Positions 26,394 to 28,477 of a stretch of DNA of 46,768 nucleotides are shown here, piece by piece. Position 1 is the stretch's first letter. Every line of letters starts with the position of its first letter. The stretch comes from a virus. The stretch spans positions 1 through 46,768 of the IMG/VR virus record IMGVR_UViG_3300022198_000832; one strand, given 5' to 3'. Below the pieces are notes generated by a model. That model had not been told where the DNA came from. It was given only the letters and a program-made list of their open reading frames with translations, and ran no database searches. A program made the translations under genes and the position numbers.

Positions 26394-26595
26394 GATATCT
26401 CCTAAAAAATAACCGCCATAACCAAGAACGAATCAAAGATATGCCAGTAAATATTATAGCTATGTGTATACTATCTAAAATAGTTGGATGCAAATCAAAA
26501 AAAGGAAATATAACTAATTGAATACCAATTGCTAATAAAAGTCCTGATCCAACATCACATATTGCTTCAATTAGAGGCCACACATGCCCTCGCAC
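26383..26595 (-). CDS. Small phage membrane protein (DUF7220-like)
   Basis: 70 residues with two transmembrane stretches: AICDVGSGLLLAIGIQLVIF and SIHIAIIFTGISLIRSWLW, then a basic end (RLFFRRYHDR). The second segment pattern IFT.iSliRSw.wRr.F is one I know from small phage proteins. Overlaps the PAPS-reductase-like gene by 25 nt. Function unknown. Confidence 0.7.
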   Translation of the reverse strand: MRGHVWPLIEAICDVGSGLLLAIGIQLVIFPFFDLHPTILDSIHIAIIFTGISLIRSWLWRLFFRRYHDR

Positions 26596-27380
26596 TCTTG
26601 ATTGAATAAATCAATTTTTTCTTTTTCTTTAAACTTAACTTGATCTAAGGGTACACATTGTCTGTGTACAAAGTTTTTAACTTTAGGATTATGTTTGCGC
26701 ATATCTTTATCAAATTGCACTGCTTCTTTAAATTCATCAGGTCTATTGTTTTTCATATCTAACCAAAAAGCATCATCGTGAAAAGGACAACCAATACAAG
26801 CTGATTTAACTGGTATTTTAAATCCTTTACCTTCATACCATTTTAAACAATCAGTTCGTGACATTTTCTTTTCTATTAAAGGCCATCTATTTTTTTGCCA
26901 CCAAAATCTAGAAGGCTTCATACGCATAATCTCATCCATAGATATACCTACCCATACTTCTACAAATTTATCTTTAGGGAATCTTTGTCTTGGTACTAAA
27001 CCCATAATCTCTCTAATTTTTTTAGCTATAGGAGTTATCTTATATTCTCTCGTACATTGTCTTCTTCCCATACCTTTCTTACCATTTTCATTTAGGGTAT
27101 AGAATGGAGCGCTCGCAAACTGATTACCACTGGGTCCGAGAGCCGTGAGTATATCATCTTTGATGTTACCTTTTTTAACAATGTGTACAGGATAACTTAG
27201 AATGGTTCTAAGGTAGTTTAAATGTTCTATTACAGGTTTAGGTTCCCAACCTGTGTCTGCAAATACAGCTGCATCAGGTTTATCTCCAAAGGCTCCCTGA
27301 TCTGCCATCAAGGCCATAGTAGAGCTTTGTACGCCTGCTCCTAATGATAATATTCTTAACGCTGGTTTAGTACTGTCCAT
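26571..27380 (-). CDS. PAPS reductase/adenine nucleotide hydrolase-superfamily protein
   Basis: 269 residues. LRILSLGAGVQSSTMALM (8-25) is the N-type ATP pyrophosphatase loop; PDAAVFADTGWEP follows as in PAPS reductases and DndC-like proteins. A C-terminal cluster SRTDCLKWY, then SACIGCPFHDDAF, carries cysteines that may bind a metal or FeS cluster. Such phage proteins are often next to DNA methyltransferases, and a DNA-modification role is possible. It overlaps the methyltransferase 3' end by 25 nt. The reaction is not known. Confidence 0.8.
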   Translation of the reverse strand: MDSTKPALRILSLGAGVQSSTMALMADQGAFGDKPDAAVFADTGWEPKPVIEHLNYLRTILSYPVHIVKKGNIKDDILTALGPSGNQFASAPFYTLNENGKKGMGRRQCTREYKITPIAKKIREIMGLVPRQRFPKDKFVEVWVGISMDEIMRMKPSRFWWQKNRWPLIEKKMSRTDCLKWYEGKGFKIPVKSACIGCPFHDDAFWLDMKNNRPDEFKEAVQFDKDMRKHNPKVKNFVHRQCVPLDQVKFKEKEKIDLFNQECEGMCGL

Positions 27381-28477
27381 ATAGCTCTTCCTATTTCTTC
27401 CGCGATTTTCGGGACGATAGCATTTCCCAATCCTTTAAGTCTGTGTGTCCTGCCGGGTACCCCATTAACCACTCTACCCACATCGGGTTCAGAGAGCCAA
27501 CTTGCTTCCCGCAATGTCCAGCTACGACTTCCTCTAGATTCGCTTTGTTCCTGTTCGCCAACTTCTCTCGATTCTTCTCCGTTATATTTGGTATAACTTT
27601 GTTCGCTCTTGGTGTTGGCCATAACTTCACTGCTGCTGGTAACATTATTTGATTGCCTCTCTTTTGTATTGTTCTCGCGTATCTCCCGTTGTCGTTGACG
27701 TCCTGTTTGTACATCCCTCGTGTTGGAGTTGGCCACATCATCTGTTCGTGAGCAACTTGATCGTTCAGACTTATCGGCATTTTCTTTTGCAATTTCATTT
27801 TCATTCTCTTTGCTGAACTCGGTCCCCTGTCGCAATGTGCGTCTGGTGTTCTCCATAATCTCATTGTCTGTTCGTCTACTTGTTCTCGCAAGTTCGAGGG
27901 TCGTGTTCGTCCCTTCCTTTGTCCCTGCATCAATTTTATTGTTCCTTCCTTTGATCTTGGAGGTAAGTGATCCATTGTGTTCGGAGTAGCCCACAATGTA
28001 GACTCGCTCTCTTTTGTGTGGAGCGTTGACGCCTGCAGCAGGAATAATAAACGGTTGGATTTCGAAGCCTTCACTTTCCAAGTCAGAGCACACTGTTTCG
28101 AAAACCATGCCGTCTTGGATGTTAATAATACCTCGGACATTTTCTGCAATAATGAAGGTGGGTTGGACTTCTTTAATGACTCTAAACATTTCTGGCCAGA
28201 GATATCTATCGTCATTGGTTCCTTTTTGTTTTCCTGCAACACTGTACGGCTGACAGGGAAACCCACCTGTGAGTATATCAATTTCTCCGAATGTTTCTTT
28301 AATTTCTTTCCCTTTACACTTTTTAATGTCATCGTATATCTTAACTCCTTTCCAATGCTTTTGCAGCAACAATTTACAATAAGGTTCCTTTTCGCAAAAA
28401 GCTACAGTTTTAAATCCTACTTTTTCTAATGCTAAACTAAACCCACCAATACCACTAAATAGATCTAAATGATTCAT
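27356..28477 (-). CDS. dcm: C5-cytosine DNA methyltransferase
   Basis: 373 residues. Motif I HLDLFSGIGGFSLAL (3-17), motif IV GGFPCQPYSVAG with the catalytic Cys near 74, motif VI FIIAENVRG, motif VIII PHKRERVYIVG and motif X HRLKGLGNAIVPKIAEEIG are all present, so the enzyme looks intact. It would methylate host or phage DNA and may block restriction. The target-recognition region (about 165-325) is odd: rich in Asn, Ser, Glu, Arg and Gln with almost no hydrophobic core. Another 313-codon frame lies inside it. AGGAG precedes the ATG. Confidence 0.93.
   Translation of the reverse strand: MNHLDLFSGIGGFSLALEKVGFKTVAFCEKEPYCKLLLQKHWKGVKIYDDIKKCKGKEIKETFGEIDILTGGFPCQPYSVAGKQKGTNDDRYLWPEMFRVIKEVQPTFIIAENVRGIINIQDGMVFETVCSDLESEGFEIQPFIIPAAGVNAPHKRERVYIVGYSEHNGSLTSKIKGRNNKIDAGTKEGTNTTLELARTSRRTDNEIMENTRRTLRQGTEFSKENENEIAKENADKSERSSCSRTDDVANSNTRDVQTGRQRQREIRENNTKERQSNNVTSSSEVMANTKSEQSYTKYNGEESREVGEQEQSESRGSRSWTLREASWLSEPDVGRVVNGVPGRTHRLKGLGNAIVPKIAEEIGRAIWTVLNQR
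27391..28332 (-). CDS. Long alternative-frame protein inside the methyltransferase gene
   Basis: A 313-residue frame on the same strand, shifted by one nucleotide, wholly inside the methyltransferase gene. It contains LWATPNTMDHLPPRS, LWRTPDAHCD, MWPTPTRGM and KLWPTPRANK, then SLNPMWVEWLMGYPAGHTDL, a set of motifs I recognise from phage and prophage proteins of unknown function. The frame spans 942 nt without a stop in an AT-rich genome. The codons for MW/LW-PTP overlap VANS/VGYS in the main frame. It may be a true second gene, or part of a frameshifted methyltransferase form. No strong Shine-Dalgarno is seen. Confidence 0.55.
   Translation of the reverse strand: MTLKSVKGKKLKKHSEKLIYSQVGFPVSRTVLQENKKEPMTIDISGQKCLESLKKSNPPSLLQKMSEVLLTSKTAWFSKQCALTWKVKASKSNRLLFLLQASTLHTKESESTLWATPNTMDHLPPRSKEGTIKLMQGQRKGRTRPSNLREQVDEQTMRLWRTPDAHCDRGPSSAKRMKMKLQKKMPISLNDQVAHEQMMWPTPTRGMYKQDVNDNGRYARTIQKRGNQIMLPAAVKLWPTPRANKVIPNITEKNREKLANRNKANLEEVVAGHCGKQVGSLNPMWVEWLMGYPAGHTDLKDWEMLSSRKSRKK

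Follow-up and report, generated by a model that had tools for sequence, protein, structure and literature searches.

A modular second reading frame nested in a phage C5-cytosine methyltransferase gene, and its probable role as a target-recognition subunit

When one reading frame of a gene is already occupied by a well-defined enzyme, it is natural to ask whether a second long frame, open across the same DNA, can also encode a functional protein and, if so, what that protein might do. This question is raised by a C5-cytosine methyltransferase (MTase) gene in a virus record of 46,768 bases, the whole of which is here called the window (Table 1). A first-pass annotation had pointed to two long frames in this gene, the second of 313 codons, and both were borne out: the second, here called beta, lies in the +1 frame relative to the MTase coding sequence (alpha) and is open for 336 codons from stop to stop. 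Where “three or more” W[AP]TP motifs had been noted in it, four WxTP motifs are present (WATP, WRTP, WPTP and WPTP), three of them of the W[AP]TP form, and the signature recognised at the end of the second frame corresponds to LNPMWVEWLMGYPAGHTDL, located near the end of beta. Of the explanations offered at that stage (true dual coding, a programmed frameshift, or mutual constraint from common ancestry), it is true dual coding that is supported by the evidence collected here.

Table 1 Positions, in window coordinates, of the two overlapping frames, their parts and the candidate start signals of beta.
Feature	Position	Strand	Remarks
C5-cytosine MTase, main frame (alpha)	27356..28477	(-)	373 aa; catalytic large domain, motifs I-VIII and X
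Alpha residues 1-167	27977..28477	(-)	motifs I-VIII, folded in the model; aligned with M.HhaI 14-171
Alpha residues 176-335	27473..27952	(-)	modules read out of frame; probable disordered linker in the place of a recognition domain
Alpha residues 343-372	27362..27451	(-)	motif X region (LGNAIVP)
Nested +1 ORF (beta), candidate target-recognition subunit	27391..28332	(-)	313 aa from first ATG
Beta residues 43-113, conserved front part, 71 aa	27994..28206	(-)	overlaps MTase catalytic motifs
Module 1, WATP..., 46 aa	27856..27993	(-)	falls in a cluster of 66 related modules
Module 2, WRTP..., 40 aa	27736..27855	(-)	
Module 3, WPTP..., 38 aa	27622..27735	(-)	
Module 4, WPTP..., 43 aa	27493..27621	(-)	
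LNPMWVEWLMGYPAGHTDL, C5-MTase motif IX-like, +1 frame	27436..27492	(-)	near-invariant across relatives
AAAGGAG, Shine-Dalgarno-like	28345..28351	(-)	12 nt (long spacing) before ATG 28332
AAAGGA, Shine-Dalgarno-like	28220..28225	(-)	4 nt before alternative in-frame ATG 28213-28215

In the main frame, alpha matches PF00145 over its full length (8.9e-57, Pfam) and phrog_363 at 1.1e-78, and as a member of PF00145 it has catalytic motifs I-VIII and X, an IX-like motif being absent from the main frame of this MTase. The key catalytic residues (PCQ, ENV and the GN of motif X) do not vary among 92 aligned sequences. For its part, beta matches phrog_1008 at 8e-28, and its front part has a consensus conserved among relatives. 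Two neighbouring features may be recorded in passing: a PAPS-reductase-like gene (window 26571-27380, minus strand; phrog_424, 2.7e-48) overlaps the 3′ end of the MTase gene by 25 nt, a PAPS reductase being annotated near the MTase in phage C72C1 too, and an antisense open reading frame (ORF) of 150 aa (window 27977-28429, plus strand) faces the MTase catalytic motifs.

The length of the +1 opening can be judged against that obtained when synonymous codons are shuffled within the MTase gene, scoring the longest +1 open stretch in each of 5,000 shuffles. The shuffled genes gave a mean of 88 and a maximum of 255 codons, and none of the 5,000 reached 336, so that the original remark that such an overlap is unlikely by chance holds good; by the same test the +2 frame, with 44 codons open, is unremarkable.

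Viral contigs were scanned twice, with one protein per frame, yielding 156 further loci, and in the loci listed, as in seven annotated phages, both frames are present in the same +1 relation. Across 111 distinct complete viral genes (the window and the annotated phages counted in), the module zone comprises 16,095 overlapped codons, in which there are no stops in the main frame, none in the +1 frame and 1,379 in the third. So as to avoid selection on the +1 frame, 107 loci were retrieved using the catalytic halves (motifs I-VIII) from two other clades as queries; among the 94 complete MTases that these contain, the strict form of the LNP-type motif that closes beta lies in an open +1 stretch in 72, a further 21 show either less strict forms or no more than an open end of a similar kind, and in one the motif lies in the main frame. 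GTDB genomes were scanned with a +1 profile, and nearly all of the best 80 loci, which were examined, have the nested arrangement; they come from Bacteroidota, Bacillota, Spirochaetota, Synergistota, Pseudomonadota, Acidobacteriota, Planctomycetota, Verrucomicrobiota, Actinomycetota and other phyla. In 77 of 80 loci retrieved with the +1 protein, that protein is nested in an MTase of this family, although, as relatives share ancestry, this and the preceding counts overstate the number of independent events.

Four loci (L215, L225, L409 and L432) were left out as evidence, their frame swaps resembling indels of the kind found in damaged genes or assembly errors. Inactivation of the MTase frame with the +1 frame intact was seen only in isolated cases (L167 and L006). 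A case of the converse kind, i.e. an MTase running through the module zone with stops in the +1 frame, was looked for as a counter-example, and only L229 came to light, which encodes an intact +1-type protein immediately downstream. Some individual loci have further peculiarities. In L006 (1778-2722, uncultured marine phage, KT997847) an apparent frameshift breaks the MTase frame, and the record lists two MTases, of which the second “methyltransferase” coding sequence is the +1 frame. Two Synergistaceae loci from GTDB (L179 and L185), in related genomes, have a stop in the same place near motif IV of the MTase frame, with the +1 frame intact, which could reflect a common nonsense mutation, recoding or decay; in a third relative (L183) the N-terminal part of the MTase is also broken. 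In a Roseovarius MAG (OX638333) the same MTase locus occurs five times on one chromosome record (L203-L207).

The frame on which selection acts was judged zone by zone, using mismatches taken from blastn alignments of the genes at same-codon-phase positions only. Before the overlap, the mismatch at main codon positions 1, 2 and 3 is.171,.119 and.379 respectively, which is the usual coding pattern. In the module zone the corresponding values are.354,.144 and.089, as would be expected of coding in the +1 frame, because main position 3 is +1 position 2; a neutral third-position pattern for the second frame had been proposed as evidence against dual coding, and what is found is the opposite of neutral. 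Divergence at four-fold sites of the MTase is about 50% near the start of the gene, mostly 0-3% in the modules and 0.00-0.01 over the opening 12 codons of the LNP segment; 24 codons past this low stretch it is back at about 46-49%. Between the window and L008 (a 92% relative), 15 changes separate the module and LNP zones, and every one of them is silent in +1 and alters the MTase residue, for which the probability by chance lies at about 1e-9 to 1e-11; in its front part, beta evolves rapidly, 29 of 34 changes there altering beta. In the module zone, then, the +1 frame is the amino-acid-constrained frame, and the MTase frame is held open, its sequence itself being unconserved. In the front of the overlap it is the MTase that predominates, with only a patchy drop in MTase-synonymous change, and part of the upstream +1 residues show constraint where they overlie the MTase motifs (codons -72 to -18).

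As judged by this pattern of selection in the sequences, the overlap is established as real dual coding. The notion that the +1 frame is open through codon usage or shared ancestry alone, the MTase being the sole functional product, would fit the first part of the overlap, which mostly follows the MTase codon pattern, but it must contend with the synonymous shuffles, the inversion of the codon-position pattern across the modules and the 15 out of 15 +1-silent changes, while modules conserved outside the MTase and the frame-wise stop counts (see below) refute it, and its probability is practically nil. It might conversely be supposed that only the +1 frame matters, the MTase being a dead gene left open by chance, as its unconserved main frame in the module zone could suggest; given that PCQ, ENV and the GN of motif X are invariant across the 92 aligned sequences, and that the module zone is free of stops although the main frame is otherwise unconstrained there, we consider this very improbable.

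Across relatives, the +1 product consists of the conserved front part, then 1-7 shuffled modules of ~42 residues starting with WxTP, and then LNPxWVEWLMGxPxGxT. Cutting the +1 proteins at WxTP gave 371 modules, of median length 42 aa, in 98 clusters, several of which change ordinal position from gene to gene (0 to 5 overall). The main-frame reading of the same zone is 77% polar across relatives, and the earlier suspicion that the polar, low-complexity “target-recognition region” of the MTase is shaped by the other frame proved correct, this region being the modules read out of frame and predicted to be disordered. The LNPxWVEWLMGxP segment is motif IX-like by resemblance and stands before motif X in six loci (see below), and it may, by resemblance and position only, be taken as motif IX; profile searches of the LNP segment against motif IX gave no significant match. 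Pfam searches with the +1 protein, including its M.AquI-like and un-nested homologues, returned no convincing family, and a PDB sequence search with the +1 alignments and the IX-like segment returned nothing significant, the LNP segment being covered by a weak, sub-threshold match (E 0.92) to 4onj, a DNA methyltransferase chain.

In M.HhaI-like enzymes the large domain carries most of the conserved motifs, and the small domain carries the variable region and motif IX (PMC3404938). The AlphaFold model of alpha, which matches M.HaeIII and M.HhaI, has block pLDDT values mostly of 82-97 over residues 1-167 (64-71 only at residues 71-90) and folded helices in the motif X region (pLDDT 76-96). Residues 176-335 have block pLDDT values mostly of 32-54, with one short helix at 259-274; this stretch is predicted to be disordered, and with its main-frame sequence unconserved the alpha polypeptide appears to be without a recognition domain and motif IX. 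The model thus predicts that alpha is a complete catalytic domain lacking a folded recognition domain, and, since it is folded as the large domain only, comparison with the M.HhaI layout implies that the split between frames coincides with the domain boundary. The model of beta is poor (pLDDT 66, pTM 0.33), its front part being modelled as two helices plus a beta hairpin, where block pLDDT reaches 88, and a Foldseek search with it gave no PDB match.

Natural variants of the arrangement are informative as to what keeps each frame open. In 10 loci the +1 frame continues for 130-170 codons beyond the MTase stop, with a further module, and there the former main frame contains 236 stops in 1,439 codons, the +1 frame being open and conserved; in L050 and L052 a related module lies within the overlap, and the main frame is without a stop. 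In extensions such as that of L055 (3942-4455) the module past the MTase stop is ~130 aa, far longer than others, and it may hold a helix-turn-helix, the L050 version giving a weak match to PF13518 (E 0.099). In six other loci (L220, L254, L337, L338, L339 and L408) it is the +1 ORF that contains motif X (GNAVVP and similar), after the LNP motif; here the main frame stops soon after motif VIII or part-way into the modules, with 60 stops in 1,155 module codons, implying that a stop-free main frame is maintained across the modules only where motif X has still to be reached. Finally, in L229 the MTase is followed immediately, and with scarcely any overlap, by an ORF for a full +1-type protein that has its front part too, while the copy inside the MTase is decayed. 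Such cases refute one of the ideas of the first-pass annotation, mutual constraint due to ancestry alone, in that the +1 frame stays open and conserved past the end of the MTase frame and the MTase frame fills with stops where the +1 frame holds motif X.

A Shine-Dalgarno-like site precedes the first +1 ATG or GTG in 49 of 109 genes, as against 21 ± 3.5 expected from synonymous resampling (a test that is inflated by kinship); in one clade AGGAGG stands 9 nt before the +1 ATG, and the +1 start sites vary between clades. These results bear on programmed ribosomal frameshifting, by which motifs I-VIII would be joined to the +1 modules, and perhaps back to X, in a single-chain MTase. The order so produced (I-VIII, modules, IX-like, X) would be the normal C5-MTase order, and modules, IX-like motif and X do share one frame in six relatives; however, two shifts in opposite directions would be required, and in most of the M.AquI-like loci (the six just described) alpha ends at a stop of its own shortly past motif VIII. 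Moreover, the enrichment of Shine-Dalgarno-like sites before +1 starts, the partial constraint on upstream +1 residues and the existence of the +1 protein as a separate ORF in L229 make the frameshift suggested at the outset unneeded, and we regard it as decidedly unlikely.

The best explanation, which we hold to be probable, is that the gene encodes a two-polypeptide C5-MTase with a multi-module recognition subunit nested in the catalytic gene. The main frame would yield alpha, i.e. the catalytic large domain in its entirety, with motifs I-VIII and X, in which the stretch between VIII and X, being the out-of-frame reading of the other gene, would be a flexible tether to motif X and nothing more. 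Translation of the +1 frame, which probably begins at an internal ribosome-binding site of its own, would yield beta, i.e. the small domain, comprising the conserved front part, a row of exchangeable target-recognition modules of ~40 residues (four here) and the motif-IX-like end. Alpha and beta would then associate to form the active enzyme, the modules deciding which sequences get methylated, and module exchange would allow the phage to evade different host restriction enzymes. We infer that beta is translated, recognises targets, contributes motif IX, assembles with alpha and confers multiple specificity. Against this explanation stand the want of any profile match between the +1 protein and MTase domains, the poor model of beta, the rapid divergence of its front part between the window and L008, and the variation of start sites between clades together with the long 12-nt spacing at the first ATG here.

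Target recognition is the most economical role for beta because it is nearly always nested in the same MTase family, because it is modular and exchangeable and supplies what alpha lacks, and because it is joined with motif X in the re-split loci. The +1 product could instead be a real DNA-binding protein acting outside the MTase, e.g. an anti-restriction or regulatory factor that arose by overprinting, a view with which the lack of detectable homology to MTase domains and the helix-turn-helix-like match in one module would agree. Its nesting in the same MTase family in 77 of 80 loci and the predicted lack of a recognition domain in alpha both speak for a subunit, and motif X in the +1 ORF of six loci makes sense only for part of an enzyme, so that a role outside the MTase seems unlikely. 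Taking the two-polypeptide enzyme as the preferred reading, we lean, with rather more reserve, towards a broader proposal: that there is a widespread class of C5-MTases in which specificity resides in a combinatorial module array written wholly in the second frame of the catalytic gene, any module order being tolerated as the array is read in the main frame only as a disordered linker, and selection filtering for modules that combine a functional +1 reading with a stop-free main reading.

If this is correct, the pair would be a long and very widely distributed case of overlapping genes in bacteria and phages, and its natural controls (un-nested, extended and re-split loci) would make the cost and origin of overlapping genes directly testable. 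It would also suggest that many “orphan” phage MTases may be inactive as annotated, the recognition subunit being missing from the annotation, and that their specificities may reside in the second frame; cloning the annotated frame only, in codon-optimised form, would destroy the other subunit. In Paenibacillus and other phage records either or both frames are annotated as “DNA cytosine methyltransferase”, the frames being confused, while phrog_1008, the family of beta, is labelled “DNA methyltransferase” in PHROG, a label that probably derives from the overlapping gene. Literature searches for MTases with a nested second frame found no account of such a class; as far as these reached, what is new is the multi-module nested subunit, its wide distribution and its natural controls, as well as the observation that, in this family, what had passed for the recognition stretch of the large polypeptide is an out-of-frame linker.

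Several known systems nevertheless invite comparison. The “g49 internal gene” of Paenibacillus phage Diva, annotated as a “hypothetical protein”, is nested as beta is. In the ShiLan type, a hidden HNH endonuclease lies out of frame in a phage methylase as a mobile HNH insertion (PMC11855218), so that both it and the window have an out-of-frame gene within a phage methylase gene, but the ShiLan HNH is a mobile insertion whereas beta is a near-constant part of its MTase family. In beta itself Pfam finds no HNH domain. The multispecific C5-MTases of the Bacillus phages SPR, phi3T, rho11s and H2 have tandem recognition modules, to which the tandem, exchangeable modules of beta, reused at different positions, may correspond. 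Trautner et al. reportedly described, in 1996, Bacillus-phage MTases with a conserved front part of ~71 aa followed by modules of 38-54 aa, beside which the sizes in beta are 71 aa and then 46, 40, 38 and 43 aa; those enzymes, however, are single chains in a single frame, whereas the modules of the window lie in the +1 frame.

Among natural two-polypeptide C5-MTases, of which M.EaeI is one, the closest precedent is M.EcoHK31I. Its small polypeptide is reported, by Lee, Kam and Shaw in 1995, to be nested within the large one in another frame, an arrangement that it would have in common with the gene described here. M.AquI is a split C5-MTase with the catalytic motifs and the recognition region with IX on two polypeptides (PMC3404938), and the six re-split loci (L220, L254, L337-L339 and L408) are similar, one ORF having the catalytic motifs and a second combining modules, IX-like motif and X; the window differs from this type in keeping motif X on the catalytic polypeptide and in that its two genes share nearly all of their DNA. 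In M.EcoHK31I the large polypeptide comprises I-VIII, X and a predicted recognition domain, and the small one motif IX (PMC3404938). The window thus shares with it, by description, I-VIII and X on the large polypeptide, but has an out-of-frame linker where M.EcoHK31I has its predicted recognition domain, and in this family it is the small polypeptide that carries the 1-7 interchangeable modules.
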